Below are positions 2,445 through 15,987 of a stretch of DNA of 16,319 nucleotides, piece by piece (position 1 is the stretch's first letter; every line of letters begins with the position of its first letter). Origin of the DNA: Nitrososphaerales archaeon TH703. GTDB lineage: Archaea > Thermoproteota > Nitrososphaeria > Nitrososphaerales > Nitrososphaeraceae. Location of the stretch: contig JAATVL010000237.1 in the NCBI GenBank assembly GCA_014523525.1, forward strand, positions 1 to 16,319. Reading direction: 5' to 3'. The position numbers and the translations under genes were made by a program. The notes beneath the pieces are model-generated. The model was not told the origin of the DNA. It searched no databases and worked only from the letters and a program-made list of their open reading frames with translations.

Positions 2445-3098
2445 ATGTATAACGGAGAATTAGAAGTACAGGCTAAAAGAAAGGCCCTGGCCGTTTTACA
2501 CGATGAAATTACTCATATTCTTAATGCAGCAAGAGATCTATCATCACTTACTGATTCCATAATAAAGGGAACCAGCAAGGAAACTGAATTATCCCTTGTT
2601 AGAATGAAAAATGCTGGTGAAGAAGTAGAGAACCTTAGAAGAAAGATGACTAGAGAAATTTCAGATACTGGAAGCCTCATGGTCTATAGGGAGGATGTTC
2701 TCAGAACTGCCTACATAATTGATGATATAGCTGGATATATCACCGGAATAGCATTTAGACTCGCAAATATTAAAATTACCACCTTAAAAAAAGGCAAATT
2801 TGATGAGGATATCAGTGGACTAATAAATATGGTTGTAGAGGCCATTTTTAAGTTAAATGAAATGGCCAGGGCGCTAAGTATAAGCCCTTCAAGCACTATT
2901 GAACTTGCACAAGAGGTACAAAACATTGAGAGAAAAGTCGACAACTCTTACAGAAAAGTTGTAATTAAAGCTCTGAATGAAATTCCGAATACAAAAGATC
3001 TTCTTCTGGTCAAGGACGCAGTAGAGGGAATAGAGGGTATGGCAGATAAATGTCAGGCTGCGTCAGACTCTCTCACTATACTTGCTCTGAGTATGTAA
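2445..3098 (+). CDS. DUF47/PhoU-like helical protein
   Basis: The 217-residue product looks fully helical and matches the DUF47 (PhoU-like, TIGR00153) pattern. A long N-terminal helix is followed by a segment LRRKMTREISD (about 64-74) and MVYREDVLRTAYIIDDIAGY (about 79-98), the conserved region with acidic residues that binds metal in relatives. The C-terminal helix ending VEGIEGMADKCQAASDSL (about 192-209) is typical of the family. Relatives usually accompany Pit-type phosphate transporters and modulate uptake, but no transporter is nearby. Its stop codon overlaps the ATG of endA (TAATG), so the two are almost certainly co-transcribed and translationally coupled. A perfect inverted repeat covers its promoter. 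Family assignment is good; the partner and ligand are unknown. Confidence 0.75.
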   Translation: MYNGELEVQAKRKALAVLHDEITHILNAARDLSSLTDSIIKGTSKETELSLVRMKNAGEEVENLRRKMTREISDTGSLMVYREDVLRTAYIIDDIAGYITGIAFRLANIKITTLKKGKFDEDISGLINMVVEAIFKLNEMARALSISPSSTIELAQEVQNIERKVDNSYRKVVIKALNEIPNTKDLLLVKDAVEGIEGMADKCQAASDSLTILALSM

Positions 3099-3649
3099 TG
3101 GGTCCTTTTTCTGGTTCGCTCGTAGAGAGCAGAATTATAATATGGGATATTGATGATTCAAGGTCAATTTTTTCTCTTGGTTATTATGGCAAACCTCTTG
3201 GGATCTACAAACCAAAGGGAATCAATTTTGAAACTCCTCTCATTCTCGATTTAATTGAAGGATGCTATTTGGTTGAATCAAAATTACTTACCTTAAGAAA
3301 TGTCAATGGAGAGAGAATAGTTTTAAAGGAGATGAAAGAAATTTGCAGAAAACAATATGTGCATTTTGATATAAAGTATCTTGTATTCAAAAAGTTAAGA
3401 GATGTAGGATATATTGTCTCTCCTGGTATCAAGTTTGGCTGTGATTTTGCTGTATATGAGCAAGGTCCTGGAATTGACCATGCACCATATCTGGTGCAGG
3501 TCGTAGACAATCACCAAGATATCACAGCTACTGGAATAGTTTTGGCTGGAAGATTGGCGACTACTGTTAAGAAGCAATTTATATTAGCAATCACATCTGT
3601 GAAACCTCGGAGAGTTTATTTTCTTAGTTTCGATTGGTGGAGAGCATGA
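3098..3649 (+). CDS. endA: tRNA-splicing endonuclease
   Basis: The enzyme cuts bulge-helix-bulge sites to remove introns from archaeal precursor tRNA. The C-terminal catalytic domain is clear: YLVFKKLRDVGYIVSPGIKFG (about 94-114), then the catalytic triad candidates Tyr120 (DFAVYEQGPG), His128 (IDHAPYLVQV) and Lys158/159 (TTVKKQFILAI). The N-terminal part (1-80) fits the family's small alpha/beta domain. At 183 residues it is the homotetramer-type (alpha4) length. ATG at 3098 was chosen because it overlaps the preceding TAA (TAATG). A frame extending 16 codons further upstream would sit inside the DUF47 gene and lacks family similarity. Pairing with a PhoU-like gene is unexpected. Confidence 0.92.
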   Translation: MGPFSGSLVESRIIIWDIDDSRSIFSLGYYGKPLGIYKPKGINFETPLILDLIEGCYLVESKLLTLRNVNGERIVLKEMKEICRKQYVHFDIKYLVFKKLRDVGYIVSPGIKFGCDFAVYEQGPGIDHAPYLVQVVDNHQDITATGIVLAGRLATTVKKQFILAITSVKPRRVYFLSFDWWRA

Positions 3650-4219: not shown

Positions 4220-6010
4220 ATGGACTCACAGTTGGATAAAGATTTTAAATTTGCCAATAAGGTTGTATTAGTCACGGGTAGTGGAACTGGAATAGGCCAA
4301 GCTATTGCAAAGAAATTTGCTGAAAATGGTGCAAGCATTATTTTACTTGGAAGAAGAAAAGAACCATTAGAAGAAACGCAATCTGAATTAGAAAACATAG
4401 TCACCAATGCTGGAAGCCGAGGAAAAATTAGGATATTTCCTGGCGTTGATGTTTCAGATGAAACATCAATAACGAATATGTTTAGTACAATTTCAAAAGA
4501 AATAGGACCTGTGGACATTCTTGTTAATAATGCTGGAGTTTCAGGTCCTGTCAAGCTTTTTACGAACTCTAATTTTCCCGAGTTCAAAGAATGTATAATG
4601 ATTCATTTAACAGGTACATTTTGGACTACCCTCAAATGCATTGAAAATATGGAAAAGGGTTCTAAAGTAATTACTATATCTACTTTTTTCACAGAAGAGA
4701 ACAAGTATGAGCAGCGGCCATATAGATTCAGAACTCCCTACACAAGTGCGCAAGGGGCCAAAAATAGGTTAGCCGAAGCTTTTGCCTGGGAATTAGTGCC
4801 TGATGGAATTCAATCAGTAGCAACTAATCCGGGTCCGGTTCATTCGGATCGAATCTACAAGACTGTATATCCAAAGGCGGCTGCAGAATTTTTACGTATC
4901 GGAGGCTTCCCTGGATTATCATCTATCGAAATAGAAAAAATATTGCAACGGCTTTTGAATGTCTTGGGGGAGGACCAGACTGCTGTGAATAAGGAAATGG
5001 AGTTAGTCATACAAGAAGTGTTTAATAAAAGGATTAAAAATGAAGATGAAAAGCTCAAACTTACGTTAAGACTCAGACAGCTTTTATCAAAAACACAGGA
5101 AATCGCTGAAAAAATACAACTGAATACCAAGAAAATGATAGTTGACAATGAATTTCTTTCTCAGGAAGAAGTAGCAGAAATGGTGCTAAACCTATCATCT
5201 GAAAAGATGAGCAAATTATTAAATGGAAAGATCGTGCCAAACGACAGAGTATTTTATCCCACAAAACCAATAATTGGAACATATATTCACCAAAACCAAA
5301 TTGATATCTCGGATAAAGTAATTGTTTTGATAATAAATTCATCATCGGAAAAAGATCATAAACGTGCGAAACTAATTGCAAATTCCCTTGTAAATAAAAT
5401 AAAACAATTGGTGATCCTAACAAAAGATACCAAAGATTTGGATTACTATAAAGAGTTCCATTCTCATTTTGTAAATTTATCAAGTGAGGATGATGTAAAA
5501 AAAATCTTTAAACTGGTTCGTAATAAATTCTCTGCAATAGATGGAGTAATTCTGCTGACTGGCGAATATGACTACGGGGTAGCATTAAAGTCCCTTGAAA
5601 GAAAGCAATGGGACCAGCTGGTGGAAAATTACTTGTTAGTGCCCGCACTGATAACCAGAGAATCTGTAATTAACATGTCTCCAGAAGGGGCAGTAAGTGA
5701 ACCGTCTCTATTCAAAGGTTCGAAGGGATCAATAACTGTCGTCGGGCCGGACTCTCCCATAGGAGACAAAATAAGCGGAGTTGTTCGTGCAAGATCGGAA
5801 ATATTTCGTGGGGCTCTTAGACCCTTCAATGCAACCGTTAATCAAGAGTTAAGAGACGTTATAAAATCAAATATAAGACAATACCTATTGCTTGCCGGCA
5901 ACATAGAGGGATGTCAACCAGATGATGAAAAAATTACTAAAATGATATTAAGTATTCTCTCACAAATTAGCGGAAACAATCAAAGCATAATTTATGTTGA
6001 TGAATCATGA
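4220..6010 (+). CDS. Tandem short-chain dehydrogenase, malonyl-CoA reductase-like
   Basis: The 596-residue product has an N-terminal SDR domain (about 10-235). It carries the classical TGxxxGIG loop (19-26), R45/R46 after the second strand (suggesting NADPH), NNAG (103-106), Ser154, Tyr174 and the NPGPVHSDRI segment. A helical insert follows (about 235-330), then a second Rossmann-like domain (about 362-596) without a glycine-rich loop, so probably non-catalytic. This order, and segments such as STFF...YEQRPY and PGPVxSDR, resemble the C-terminal half of Chloroflexus malonyl-CoA reductase (recalled by eye). That half reduces malonyl-CoA to malonate semialdehyde. Oddly, the residue four after Tyr174 is Gln178; a Lys stands at +7 (Lys181), the FabI-type Y-x6-K spacing. 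It is probably monocistronic. A role in the 3-hydroxypropionate/4-hydroxybutyrate cycle is a hypothesis; the fold is secure. Confidence 0.8.
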   Translation: MDSQLDKDFKFANKVVLVTGSGTGIGQAIAKKFAENGASIILLGRRKEPLEETQSELENIVTNAGSRGKIRIFPGVDVSDETSITNMFSTISKEIGPVDILVNNAGVSGPVKLFTNSNFPEFKECIMIHLTGTFWTTLKCIENMEKGSKVITISTFFTEENKYEQRPYRFRTPYTSAQGAKNRLAEAFAWELVPDGIQSVATNPGPVHSDRIYKTVYPKAAAEFLRIGGFPGLSSIEIEKILQRLLNVLGEDQTAVNKEMELVIQEVFNKRIKNEDEKLKLTLRLRQLLSKTQEIAEKIQLNTKKMIVDNEFLSQEEVAEMVLNLSSEKMSKLLNGKIVPNDRVFYPTKPIIGTYIHQNQIDISDKVIVLIINSSSEKDHKRAKLIANSLVNKIKQLVILTKDTKDLDYYKEFHSHFVNLSSEDDVKKIFKLVRNKFSAIDGVILLTGEYDYGVALKSLERKQWDQLVENYLLVPALITRESVINMSPEGAVSEPSLFKGSKGSITVVGPDSPIGDKISGVVRARSEIFRGALRPFNATVNQELRDVIKSNIRQYLLLAGNIEGCQPDDEKITKMILSILSQISGNNQSIIYVDES

Positions 6011-6102: not shown

Positions 6103-7917
6103 ATGACTGATAAATTCGTTCTAGACACCAGTGTAATCATTAATGGCAATGTTCCAGAAATCATACAAAATAAAATCAAACAAAACAGCCAGATAATAAT
6201 TCCTATAGCTGTTCTGGACGAACTGCAGGCGCAGGCATCGATGAATAAGTCACATGGATTAGAAGGATTACTTGAAATAAAAAGGATAAGGCATGAATGC
6301 AAAGCTAGAAAAATAAGTCTGGAATTTGCGGGAACCAGACCAACAATTGAAGAAATCAGGTTGGCCAAACATGGAAGAATTGATGCTATTATAAAAGATA
6401 TAGCTTTAGAAAATGATGCTACATTGATAACATGTGACTACGTTCAACACTTGGTATCTGAAGCACATGGAATAAAGTCAATTCATATTAGTTCCCCTAA
6501 AGAAGATTCAAAATTGCAATTTGAAAAATATTTTGATAATGATACAATGAGTGTTCATCTAAAGGAAGGTACTTGTCCATTTGCAAAAAAAGGTGTCCCT
6601 GGTAACTTAAAACTTGTGCGTTTGGAAGGAAAAAGACTCACAGCTGAAGAAGTTTATGAAATTATAAAGGAAATTTTAGAGCGATCAAGATCAAGAAAAG
6701 GATTCACCGAAATTAACAAGGATGGAGCAACTGTCATCCAGTTGGAGAAATATAGAATTGCAATAACAAAAGAGCCCTTTTCAAATGGGCAAGAAATTAC
6801 GATTGTAAAACCAGTAGCAAAGTTGACATTAGAAGATTACGGACTAAGCGAAAAATTATTGGCTCGATTGACATCAGATGTGGAAGGAATTATTATCGCA
6901 GGACCTCCCGGATCTGGCAAGAGTACACTGGCAAGCAGTCTTGCCGAATTTTATGTTACACAAAAAAAGATTGTAAAGACATTGGAATCCCCTAGAGATT
7001 TGCAAGTACCAAAAGAGGTAACCCAGTATGGACCGCTTGAGGGAAGTTTCGAAAATGCTGTTGACATTTTGCTGCTCGTACGTCCTGACTATACGATATT
7101 TGATGAAATAAGACGATATAGAGACTTTCAAGTATTTTCTGACATGAAACTAGCTGGAGTCGGCATGATAGGAGTAATTCATGCAAGCAAACCTTTGGAC
7201 GCAGTACAGAGATTTATTGGCAGAATCGAATTAGGGATGATACCGCAAATTCTAGATACGATTATCTTCATGGACGCCGGAATGGTCAAGAAGGTTTATG
7301 AAATTTCACTGACGGTCAAAGTACCGTATAAGATGACTGAGGCTGATCTTGCCAGGCCCGTAGTAGAAGTGAAAGATTTTTCGACAGGAGTAATAGAATA
7401 TGAGATTTATACATTTGGTGAAGAAAACGTCATTGTGCCCGTTGACCTGGATAGCGATACTAATCAAAACAACATCTATAAACTTGCTGAATCAAAGATA
7501 AAGGACGTAATACGGCGTTTTGATCCGAATCCAGAGATATCCATCTTATCAGGCAATAAAGTTAGAATCAAGGTCCAGAAGGACACAATTCCTCGAATAA
7601 TTGGAAAAGGTGGATCAACCATAAGTGAGCTTGAAAATATGCTTGGTGTAAGAATAGATGTAGAAATGAAAACTCCTACTCTTGGCAAAGAGGTATACTT
7701 TCAAATAAACGAGTCGGGCAATGGAGTTATCATAAAGCTAGACGAAGATACAATTGGTAACAAAGTAAATTTGTACATTGATGATGAATTTATTTGTGCA
7801 AATCAGGTGGGAAAGAAATCAAGAATCAAAATAGACAAGAGGTCTGATAGCGGTAGAAAGATATTAAATGCCATTATAGCAGGACAGAAAATAAAAATTT
7901 TTCAAATTGACAATTAA
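6103..7917 (+). CDS. PINA-type PIN-ATPase-KH protein
   Basis: The 604-residue product joins three recognisable parts. A PIN nuclease-like domain (1-130) keeps the acidic set Asp8 (VLDTS), Glu40 (LDELQA), Asp94 (GRIDA) and Asp112 (TCDY). A VirB11/PilT-like ATPase (about 220-430) has Walker A GPPGSGKST (267-275, Lys273), an acidic Walker B-like IFDEIR, and a GVIHASKP sensor segment. A KH domain (about 480-525) carries IIGKGG (499-504). About 80 further residues, probably strands, end the protein. This order is that of Sulfolobus PINA, reported as a hexameric ATPase acting on Holliday junctions with Hjm and Hjc. A role in recombination or replication-fork repair is therefore likely. The complete acidic set suggests possible nuclease activity. 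It stands alone between unrelated genes. Confidence 0.88.
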   Translation: MTDKFVLDTSVIINGNVPEIIQNKIKQNSQIIIPIAVLDELQAQASMNKSHGLEGLLEIKRIRHECKARKISLEFAGTRPTIEEIRLAKHGRIDAIIKDIALENDATLITCDYVQHLVSEAHGIKSIHISSPKEDSKLQFEKYFDNDTMSVHLKEGTCPFAKKGVPGNLKLVRLEGKRLTAEEVYEIIKEILERSRSRKGFTEINKDGATVIQLEKYRIAITKEPFSNGQEITIVKPVAKLTLEDYGLSEKLLARLTSDVEGIIIAGPPGSGKSTLASSLAEFYVTQKKIVKTLESPRDLQVPKEVTQYGPLEGSFENAVDILLLVRPDYTIFDEIRRYRDFQVFSDMKLAGVGMIGVIHASKPLDAVQRFIGRIELGMIPQILDTIIFMDAGMVKKVYEISLTVKVPYKMTEADLARPVVEVKDFSTGVIEYEIYTFGEENVIVPVDLDSDTNQNNIYKLAESKIKDVIRRFDPNPEISILSGNKVRIKVQKDTIPRIIGKGGSTISELENMLGVRIDVEMKTPTLGKEVYFQINESGNGVIIKLDEDTIGNKVNLYIDDEFICANQVGKKSRIKIDKRSDSGRKILNAIIAGQKIKIFQIDN

Positions 7918-7997: not shown

Positions 7998-9176
7998 TTA
8001 ACTAATCCTATAAATTGTTCCATCATTAAAAGACAGAACATAAAGATATCCATCAGGCCCTGTCTTTATATCAGTTATTCCTGCAAAACCTTTTCCAAAT
8101 ATTATTGATTCTAGGTCACCTTTACTTTCGACAACACGACCAGCCAATCCAGGTGCATCTAACTTAAAGTCAGTTCTCTCGTCATTTAACTGAAATCTAT
8201 AAAGATTTCCATTTCCATAATCTCCTACGAATGTATTATTTGCATATTCTACGCATAATTTACTTGAATTAAGAAATTCAATATCTGTAATACCAAAAGA
8301 ATCTATAAAGCTAAGTACTGGATCCTTATAATGTGAATTTGGAAAGTTTACCAAGTCCTTTTGTGTTATTCCGCTATCTGAAATTGGTCCCATTGCTAGT
8401 TTCCAGCCACTATTAAATCCAGGTGTAATCATATTAATTTCGTCATGTGATTTTTCTCCATTTTCCGTATCCCATAAGGTTCCGGTAACTGGGTCTACCC
8501 CCAGCCCAAAACTATTTCTTATTCCATAAGCTTGATACCAATTCAGTGGATCATTGGAATTGTCACCTTTGAAAGGATTATTAGGAGCGGGTGATCCATC
8601 ATTTGGGTTTATTTTTAAAATTGCCCCACTAAAGTCTGGATCTGGACCATTTATTATATTTTGATCTTTTCCATTTCGTTGCAACTCTCCAGTTACAGAA
8701 TAAAGATATCCATCACTACTTACAGCCAGTTTCCCACCTTGGTGATTGGTAGCGGGTGTTCCTGGAAGATCCTTAAATACCTCTTGATGAGTTAGCTCTG
8801 GCCCAGCTGATAAAGTGTACTTGAATATCCTATTTATCAGTTGACCATCATTTACAGTTGCATATAAGAATATATTTTCACCCACTCTTTCTATTCCTAA
8901 TAATCCACGTTCATTCTTAGTGTCAACATTTAGGGATAGTAACGGTTGTGGTTGTAGTATCCCATTGCTAACGAGCCTGACGTTTCCATCTTTTTCTAAG
9001 ACGATAATATTATTTTTATCCAGGAATAACATGCTGGTAGGAAATGAAATACCACTCACTAATGCTTCGACCTTAAGGTTAGGATCTTTTAATGATGGTT
9101 GTGCATATAACAAATTACCTTGTAGAATAATTGCGAGTGATATAACAACTAAAGAAGAGGCGAGGAATTTTTTCAT
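7998..9176 (-). CDS. Secreted PQQ-type sugar dehydrogenase (GSDH beta-propeller)
   Basis: The 392-residue product has a signal peptide: a KK start, a hydrophobic core about 7-20 and a likely cut after LLYA near residue 25. It is then a six-bladed beta-propeller of the glucose/sorbosone dehydrogenase family. Visible landmarks are NERGLLGI (88-95), NHQGGKL with His145 (the family's catalytic base), YGIRNSFGLGVDP with Arg220, WDTENGEKSHDEIN (235-248, metal/cofactor region), NSGWK and a last-blade GPDGYLYVLSF. Relatives oxidise aldose sugars outside the membrane using PQQ and calcium. Substrate and cofactor use here are unproven, and PQQ synthesis genes are not in view. The ATG is supported by a strong TATA box 29 bases upstream, so it is probably transcribed separately from the CBS gene before it. 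Confidence 0.85.
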   Translation of the reverse strand: MKKFLASSLVVISLAIILQGNLLYAQPSLKDPNLKVEALVSGISFPTSMLFLDKNNIIVLEKDGNVRLVSNGILQPQPLLSLNVDTKNERGLLGIERVGENIFLYATVNDGQLINRIFKYTLSAGPELTHQEVFKDLPGTPATNHQGGKLAVSSDGYLYSVTGELQRNGKDQNIINGPDPDFSGAILKINPNDGSPAPNNPFKGDNSNDPLNWYQAYGIRNSFGLGVDPVTGTLWDTENGEKSHDEINMITPGFNSGWKLAMGPISDSGITQKDLVNFPNSHYKDPVLSFIDSFGITDIEFLNSSKLCVEYANNTFVGDYGNGNLYRFQLNDERTDFKLDAPGLAGRVVESKGDLESIIFGKGFAGITDIKTGPDGYLYVLSFNDGTIYRIS

Positions 9177-15231: not shown

Positions 15232-15987
15232 TTATTTTGCAGAAATGCCGCCATCAATAGTCAAAGTTGTTCCAGTAATCCAATTTGCATCATCCGAACA
15301 TAGATAAACAACTGCTCCGGAAATGTCACTAGTATTTCCTATCCTCCTTAATGGAAATGACGATTCTAATAACTCTTTAGACTTTTCATCTTGCAAATAA
15401 GGTTCTATCATGGGACTTCTTATTGTAGATGGTACAATACAGTTGCATCTAATACCAAATGGTCCGTATTCTACTGCTATACTTTTTGTAAACATTATGA
15501 TACCAGCTTTAGTAGCGCCATAAATGGACAGAGGAACATTTGGAATTGCACGTATTCCTAGTAACGAAGAGATATTAACAATACTTCCAATTTTTTTTTC
15601 CATGATTATTGGCAAAACAGCCTTGGTTATCTGAAAGGTACCTATCAAATTTGTAGAGATTAGATTATCCCATTGATCTTCAGTCATCAGGTGAAATGAA
15701 ATTGGATCGTTTAGGACACCAGCATTGTTTACAAGAATGTCCACAGTATCGAAGGATGATATAGTTTGCTCAATAACGTTTAGCACTTCTGCCTCTTTGG
15801 TGATGTCTGCACTTACAGCTAGCAAATCATTGCTCTTATCAGTGTCTGAAATAACCTTTGCCAATTTTGAACGATCTCTACCAACTAGGGTCACTTTACA
15901 TCCTTCATTAACGAGGCGTTCAGTTGTAGATCTTCCTACCCCTCCACCTGCACCTGTTACAATAGCAACTTTTCCCTTAAGACTCAT
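15232..15987 (-). CDS. FabG-like short-chain dehydrogenase/reductase
   Basis: The 251-residue product is a complete classical SDR. It has TGAGGGVG (11-18) for the dinucleotide, R37 and R39 after the second strand (suggesting NADPH), NNAG (87-90), Asn113, Ser141 in NISSLLG, and the Tyr156-x3-Lys160 pair (SIYGATKAG). Its C-terminus, ITGTTLTIDGG, is the usual one. It reduces a carbonyl or oxidises an alcohol; the substrate is not predictable. FabG itself is only the nearest well-known relative, because archaea lack bacterial-type fatty acid synthesis. Both SDR proteins in the window share the fold, but this one has the standard catalytic spacing. The ATG at 15987 lies 26 bases from a TATA-like palindrome, and the gene is divergent from purK. 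Confidence 0.9.
   Translation of the reverse strand: MSLKGKVAIVTGAGGGVGRSTTERLVNEGCKVTLVGRDRSKLAKVISDTDKSNDLLAVSADITKEAEVLNVIEQTISSFDTVDILVNNAGVLNDPISFHLMTEDQWDNLISTNLIGTFQITKAVLPIIMEKKIGSIVNISSLLGIRAIPNVPLSIYGATKAGIIMFTKSIAVEYGPFGIRCNCIVPSTIRSPMIEPYLQDEKSKELLESSFPLRRIGNTSDISGAVVYLCSDDANWITGTTLTIDGGISAK

Follow-up and report, generated by a model that had tools for sequence, protein, structure and literature searches.

Which enzyme reduces malonyl-CoA in the 3-hydroxypropionate/4-hydroxybutyrate (HP/HB) cycle of ammonia-oxidizing archaea (AOA) is the question raised by one gene in a 16,319-nucleotide stretch of a Nitrososphaerales genome, the whole of which is referred to here as the window. 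In PMC6038301, the malonyl-CoA reductase step has no assigned gene in AOA although the activities were shown in N. maritimus extracts, succinyl-CoA reductase is listed as unidentified in N. maritimus, and acryloyl-CoA reductase has no assigned AOA gene. PMC6964070 (2020) states that N. maritimus has no recognisable malonyl-CoA reductase gene, and both sources agree with an earlier note on this DNA, which had held that the AOA enzyme lacks a firm assignment. PMC5797428 (2018) reports no homologue of the bifunctional enzyme in a search with the Chloroflexus protein and, for the semialdehyde step in Nitrosocaldus, puts forward SDRs of ~30% identity; the protein described here may be among those SDRs. 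The supplement of PMC4084955 (2014) suggests candidates for the route from malonyl-CoA to propionyl-CoA, and the present gene may stand among the earlier supplementary candidates of that paper or of PMC5797428. PMC12894919 (2026) describes a second HP/HB type that has malonic semialdehyde reductase (K18602) among its markers and none for malonyl-CoA reductase; by our reading, this type is the AOA one. A search of the open-access literature, with bioRxiv outside its coverage, found no paper assigning the gene.

The source genome (G000) carries archaeal amoA (G000:C6) and a gene of the HpaB family (G000:C108), which is the family of 4-hydroxybutyryl-CoA dehydratase, and because both are present we regard the organism as an ammonia oxidizer. 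The features of the gene are collected in Table 1. Its orthologues in other genera and families are ~46–60% identical in nearly full-length alignments, so the reading frame is not a chance ORF. One 96%-identical orthologue (L002, G007:C6) has an in-frame TAG after ~500 codons, which reflects either decay or an assembly error.

Table 1. Features of the double-SDR gene, with positions in the window
Feature	Position	Strand	Basis
MCR-like double-SDR gene	4220..6010	+	ORF of 596 aa, ATG start; PF00106; AlphaFold; Foldseek
Catalytic SDR core, residues ~11-211 (NADPH-binding TGSGTGIG, GRR, NNAG)	4250..4852	+	Pfam, conservation, model
His129, at the usual SDR/MCR tetrad Asn (Chloroflexus Asn691)	4604..4606	+	H in 70/70 orthologues
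Thr155, at the position of Chloroflexus MCR-C Ser719 / MCR-N Thr	4682..4684	+	T in 70/70
YxxRxxY motif Y168-R171-Y174 (Chloroflexus Y731-R734-Y737)	4721..4741	+	31/31 AOA + MCR rows; 0/57 and 0/20 controls
Gln178 replacing catalytic Lys (Chloroflexus K741); Lys181 three residues on	4751..4753	+	Q178 and K181 in 70/70
Arg211, equivalent of Chloroflexus Arg773	4850..4852	+	R in 70/70; 31/31 AOA + MCR rows; 0/57 and 1/20 controls
Helical insert, residues ~212-335, six helices, at the place of the MCR-C extra domain	4853..5224	+	model secondary structure
Second Rossmann domain, residues ~366-596, no glycine loop, conserved FRGALRP	5315..6007	+	conservation, model, hhalign

The earlier note had read the protein as an N-terminal SDR domain with complete NADPH and substrate motifs, a helical insert of about 100 residues, and a second Rossmann-like domain without the glycine loop. 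The N-terminal SDR domain was borne out: PF00106 covered residues 14-210 (E 4e-39), and T19-G26 (TGSGTGIG), G44-R45-R46, D77-V78 and N104-A105-G106 were invariant in 70 AOA sequences, with N103 nearly so. No Pfam family matched the rest of the protein at E 0.001. The AlphaFold model (pLDDT 85.7, pTM 0.88) contained the insert, with a length of ~120 residues in place of the 100 expected. The second domain was also as described; it begins DKVIVLIINSSSEKD and has no TGxxxGxG loop, which suggests that it has no cofactor site. Like malonyl-CoA reductase (MCR), the protein is thus an SDR-SDR unit in which a catalytic first domain is followed by a second domain apparently without a cofactor site. The bacterial enzyme is a bifunctional fusion of two such halves (~1,220 aa), and a single 596-aa unit was found here.

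We compared the AlphaFold models of the window protein and of its Nitrosocaldus orthologue with the PDB. With Foldseek, the best 25 matches of both models were all MCR at full length. The next match was MFE-2 at 4e-17 for the window protein and glucose dehydrogenase at 4.8e-12 for the orthologue. The Candida (3R)-hydroxyacyl-CoA dehydrogenase of MFE-2 (2et6) also has two SDR domains per chain; it ranked below all 25 MCR matches and was absent among the 50 matches listed for the orthologue. Against the kinship, the MCR superpositions of the window protein had an rmsd of 5.6-9.8 A at TM 0.66-0.70. VIA-align placed MCR at ranks 1-19 over 484-518 residues, in a list from which the absence of a family is not taken as its exclusion. 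The better matches in a viral structure library were SDR- and epimerase-like and uninformative.

Sequence searches agreed for the whole protein and were less decisive for its parts. With phmmer, the 11 best matches among PDB sequences were MCR, comprising two full-length chains (139.6 and 130.3 bits, two domains added) and nine C-half chains (73.7-78.1 bits); glucose dehydrogenase followed at 70.8 bits, and some ordinary SDRs outscored the C-half from Porphyrobacter (59.7 bits) and the chains of the N-half (64.4 and 58.1 bits). A profile of 70 AOA sequences scored full-length MCR at 164 and 162 bits, but a single glucose dehydrogenase domain (93.2 bits) ranked ahead of all single-half MCR chains (89.7 bits or less), and we therefore gave up the view that sequence scores identify the catalytic domain, taken by itself, beyond doubt as MCR. 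An HMM of the AOA SDR domain, run on 75 domains, gave 87-104 bits for 11 MCR-C domains, 54-78 for seven MCR-N domains and 26-71 for 57 other SDRs. The best NCBIfam model for the 596-aa protein was a FabG subfamily; this identity was rejected because the score lay under the cut-off and the second domain was left unexplained.

In a scan of genome contigs with the Chloroflexus MCR-C piece, 79 loci were recovered. Sixteen of them (L033-L048), at 64-94% identity to the piece, were taken as MCR, and the AOA protein of a Nitrosopumilus MAG (L056, 29% identity) ranked below seven ordinary SDRs (L049-L055). Three of the MCR genes lie on contigs labelled Gracilibacteria, Gemmatimonadaceae and Actinomycetota (L038, L045 and L048, respectively), through a wider bacterial spread of MCR or mis-binning. 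Five SDRs of Chloroflexi MAGs (L092, L093, L094, L099 and L102) carry an RxxRxxY variant at the place of YxxRxxY and form their own long branch. With the Chloroflexus MCR-C piece as tblastn query, nothing in the plasmid records matched at E 1e-20.

The bacterial MCR C-half (SDR3-ED-SDR4; Chloroflexus aurantiacus, Roseiflexus castenholzii and Porphyrobacter) has in common with the AOA protein the tandem SDR fold and an insert after the first SDR, and the catalytic domains are 28-34% identical over ~205 residues. The AOA protein differs in being a stand-alone protein of 596 aa in which Lys is replaced by Gln, Asn by His and Ser by Thr. Its insert is shorter; in the model it occupies the place of the extra domain (ED) of the C-half, but hhalign found no sequence match between it and the MCR inserts. 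The SDR core aligned equally well with both halves (MCR-C 99.8%, E 5e-29; MCR-N 99.8%, 3e-28), as did local alignments of whole-length profiles (MCR-C 99.6% over 441 columns; MCR-N 99.8% over 432), and the second domain matched weakly, the N-half better (SDR2 of MCR-N 87%, 4e-6; SDR4 of MCR-C 19%, 1e-3). The N-half (SDR1-SDR2, malonate semialdehyde reductase) has a shorter insert and keeps Lys and Asn. The extra residues ahead of YxxRxxY, an extended loop ending in Pro-Tyr, are shared by the AOA protein and MCR-C, as is the Arg773 equivalent, and this loop is lacking in MCR-N; the Thr at position 155 is as in MCR-N.

Residue numbers were anchored on Chloroflexus MCR by alignment, and the pairing of residues 211 and 773 was found in the alignment of the PDB sequence search. 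The YxxRxxY motif, described for both MCR halves in PMC10470521, and the Arg773 equivalent were both present in the AOA protein, R171, Y174 and R211 being conserved in 70/70 AOA orthologues and Y168 in 69/70. Y168 and R211 match Y731 and R773, which by PDB titles are the sites of the variants in 8aer, 8aeo and 8aeq. F157, Y168, R171, Y174, P206 and R211 occurred together in all AOA (13/13), MCR-C (11/11) and MCR-N (7/7) rows, and together in none of the 57 SDRs fetched by the MCR query or the 20 archaeal SDRs. Singly, these MCR-shared residues were found in 3, 2, 6 (R171), 8 (P206) and 0 (R211) of the 57 and in 0, 2, 2, 4 and 1 of the 20, and the full YxxRxxY motif was absent from all 77 control SDRs.

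Two further positions of the active site depart from this likeness. Position 129 is N in 18/18 MCR domains and 52/57 other SDRs, and position 178 is K in 18/18 and 56/57, respectively. The earlier reading of complete motifs therefore stands for the NADPH motifs, Tyr174 and Thr155, and fails for the Lys of YxxxK and the tetrad Asn, which are Gln178 and His129 in all 70 orthologues. MCR-C has Y-xxx-K-xx-Q where AOA have Y-xxx-Q-xx-K, as though Lys and Gln had been swapped; an alignment slip is unlikely because the helix aligned without gaps to both MCR halves. According to PMC10470521, mutation of Lys753 abolished the activity of Roseiflexus MCR, which makes Gln178 the strongest point against a simple transfer of function. 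With two conserved active-site changes, the function of MCR is not simply transferable, and since the Ser/Thr-Tyr-Lys triad is incomplete (Gln178 in 70/70) and the two-half fusion is absent, the protein does not belong among the canonical MCRs, although most likely it acts like one.

Altered tetrads occur in SDR enoyl reductases too, and FabI spaces its Tyr and Lys as Y-x6-K. Y174-x6-K181 has this FabI-like spacing, and the NADPH-binding motifs are retained. An enoyl-CoA (acryloyl-CoA) reductase, for which PMC6038301 gives no assigned AOA gene, is nevertheless very unlikely: fold and tree point to MCR, no such enzyme is named in the titles among the 50 PDB matches listed by Foldseek and VIA-align, and the ungapped alignment would put the Lys three residues off the FabI register.

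We built trees from the catalytic domains of AOA, MCR-N, MCR-C and the 57 SDRs retrieved with the MCR query, a second SDR of the window among them. The AOA, MCR-C and MCR-N domains formed one clade apart from the other SDRs in trees of 88 rows (SH-aLRT 94), 78 rows (98/82) and 51 rows (87/90). The clade recurred at 98/98, with the bootstrap not fully settled, in a 68-row tree against 17 MCR-query SDRs and 20 archaeal SDRs, the latter from AOA and relatives and picked by us among the matches of this protein in relatives. Within the clade, AOA grouped with MCR-N at 98/89 (78 rows) and 94/85 (best tree, 51 rows), but at only 36/0 (68 rows) once the archaeal SDRs were added, and long-branch joining of MCR-N and AOA was flagged for the 88-, 78- and 51-row trees. 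AU tests on the 51-row tree rejected neither AOA with MCR-C (p 0.19) nor MCR-C with MCR-N (p 0.30). The likeness to the MCR C-half claimed in the earlier note thus holds as kinship with MCR, through fold, clade (98/98) and family-specific residues, and the evidence for the C-half over the N-half is divided: sequence scores and the shared extended loop favour the C-half, and the N-half is favoured in two trees and by the second-domain profile. We gave up the idea of a clear C-half orthologue in view of the 78-, 51- and 68-row trees and the comparison of the parts by hhalign. Kinship with MCR is well supported at the family level, and on our best reading the protein forms a free-standing third MCR branch beside the bacterial N- and C-halves. 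The second SDR of the window (15232-15987) is an ordinary one of the glucose 1-dehydrogenase subfamily (NCBIfam, 232.5 bits, above the cut-off); it fell outside the MCR clade and sits between genes resembling purine synthesis genes.

The grouping with MCR-N, the second domain nearest to SDR2 of MCR-N and the MCR-N-like Thr155 would fit an aldehyde reductase of the kind found in the MCR N-half, acting on a semialdehyde to give 3-hydroxypropionate or 4-hydroxybutyrate. Genomes that lack the expected enzyme also speak for it. A clear Fe-ADH match (E 1.3e-24 or better), which we took as a putative malonic semialdehyde reductase of the Nmar_1110 type, was present in 27/37 f1 genomes and both f9 genomes; no clear match was found in the genome of the window (88% complete) or in four f2/f3 AOA genomes. 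The f2/f3 result agrees with the Nitrosocaldus report in PMC5797428, where SDRs are suggested for the semialdehyde step. These four genomes (G037, G038, G053 and G054) have the MCR-like gene, and G037 and G053 carry two HpaB copies. Carbonyl reduction by SDRs depends on a Tyr-Lys proton relay. We consider an aldehyde reductase unlikely, as the Lys of this relay is lost in 70/70 orthologues, the grouping with MCR-N collapses with the archaeal SDRs added, and a clear Fe-ADH match is present in both f9 genomes and in the majority of f1 genomes, most of these also keeping the MCR-like gene.

The distribution of the gene followed that of ammonia oxidation. Among 250 genomes of the order (completeness at least 85%; split into classes by us from the listed genomes), 191 had the gene and 182 had amoA: 179 had both, 12 the gene only (all in groups f1 and f9), three amoA only (G010, G233 and G240, at 86-92% completeness) and 56 neither. 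The presence across AOA genomes proposed as a check in the earlier note was accordingly found in 179 of 182 amoA-bearing genomes. Across 397 genomes of the phylum, 83 carried the gene, all in the AOA groups f1, f2, f3 and f9 of the order, and the other 314 gave no match at E 1e-25. Of 61 relatives, 41 had the gene (E below 1e-50, some as fragments) and 40 had amoA; both were present in 38, the gene only in three (G020, G027 and G028), amoA only in two (G002, 63% complete; G010, 92% complete) and neither in 18. According to PMC8287830, HP/HB key genes occur in all AOA studied and are absent from non-AOA, and the MCR-like gene obeys the same rule. This supports a role in the cycle and does not prove it, because other AOA-specific genes follow the rule too.

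No HP/HB gene was recognized beside the MCR-like gene in 21 loci, where only homologues of the window genes were tested. The recognized neighbours were genes for PhoU, tRNA endonuclease and homoserine dehydrogenase, with PhoU-like and/or tRNA-splicing endonuclease nearby in 10/21 loci and homoserine dehydrogenase in 10/21. Such neighbours, the rewired tetrad and an AOA-only distribution that may be common to many genes would suit a reductase peculiar to AOA that has no part in the HP/HB cycle, or a protein that binds NADPH and catalyses little or nothing. We hold this to be quite unlikely, given that the NADPH motifs, the catalytic Tyr and the MCR-specific residues are conserved and that the gene is kept even in AOA genomes of ~0.8 Mb (G193 and G208). 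In the window itself, the PhoU-like (PF01865) and tRNA-splicing endonuclease genes (2445-3649) overlap by 49 bases. Positions 6103-7917 encode a PIN-ATPase-KH protein that matches the NCBIfam PRK13764 ATPase (754.8 bits, above the cut-off) and, below the cut-off, the model of the Holliday-junction migration ATPase PINA, and positions 7998-9176 encode a glucose/sorbosone dehydrogenase family protein (PF07995) whose hydrophobic N-terminus resembles a signal peptide. A sigma-70 scan, with a model unsuited to archaea, gave fewer sites than shuffles.

The Sulfolobales malonyl-CoA/succinyl-CoA reductase carries out the pathway step proposed here for the AOA protein and is of a different family, PF02774, which we take to be that of aspartate-semialdehyde dehydrogenase and of Sulfolobales-type malonyl-CoA reductases. 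The 596-aa protein has SDR-type Pfam matches only. AOA and their non-AOA relatives alike mostly had two PF02774 members in each genome, as expected for what are presumably two housekeeping enzymes, so AOA have no consistent spare copy. Aldehyde dehydrogenases (PF00171) occurred in 58/61 genomes, AOA or not, and are possible rivals for an acyl-CoA reductase; as pointers to a rival, the HpaB, carboxyltransferase and aldehyde dehydrogenase profiles were set aside, being not AOA-specific and singling out none. In Metallosphaera, presumably, one enzyme reduces both malonyl-CoA and succinyl-CoA. Succinyl-CoA reduction has the same chemistry, and the insert, by which the chain length of the acid might be set, is unlike MCR in sequence; the step also has no identified enzyme in N. 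maritimus in PMC6038301. That the protein serves the cycle as its succinyl-CoA reductase and not as the malonyl-CoA reductase is nonetheless rather unlikely, since its closest characterized relatives use malonyl-CoA and a single enzyme may serve both substrates.

Judged from sequence and predicted structure, the gene is somewhat likelier than otherwise to encode the AOA malonyl-CoA reductase, whether or not the enzyme also acts on succinyl-CoA. The candidacy for the missing step put forward in the earlier note gains from the presence of the gene in AOA, its absence from the searched non-AOA and the lack of a consistent extra PF02774 copy, and loses from the two conserved active-site changes. 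The analysis shows the gene itself, its domains, its kinship with MCR, the conserved residues and, in the genomes searched, the restriction to AOA; which substrate is used, which way the reaction runs, how each catalytic step proceeds and what His129, Gln178 and Lys181 do are inferred. The protein would act as a stand-alone NADPH-dependent double-SDR reductase that converts malonyl-CoA, and perhaps succinyl-CoA, to the semialdehyde (malonate semialdehyde from malonyl-CoA). NADPH would bind to the first SDR domain, the CoA ester would be enclosed by the insert together with the second Rossmann domain, which has no glycine loop, and Arg211 with nearby conserved arginines would hold the acid group. 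Hydride would attack the thioester carbonyl under stabilization by Thr155 and Tyr174, and the CoA thiolate would leave with a proton received via Tyr168/Arg171, a route proposed for Roseiflexus MCR. The part of Gln178 may be to hold the NADPH ribose while supplying no proton to the product aldehyde, and the reduction would therefore stop at the semialdehyde. We see an even balance for and against the fuller statement that a third kind of malonyl-CoA reductase closes the AOA HP/HB cycle, standing alone, with the N-S-Y-K tetrad rewired to H-T-Y-Q, the Lys moved to 181, and thioester reduction halted at the aldehyde by a cut proton relay.

The MCR-like gene is a strong candidate for a carbon-fixation step of abundant microbes that has no known enzyme. 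As it is one gene, present across AOA, expressing it once and running a single spectrophotometric assay would put the question to the test. An active protein would also be an SDR that reduces a thioester while lacking the canonical lysine, relevant to enzymology and to 3-hydroxypropionate production. If the proposal is true, the bacterial 3-hydroxypropionate bi-cycle and the AOA cycle would share an enzyme family.
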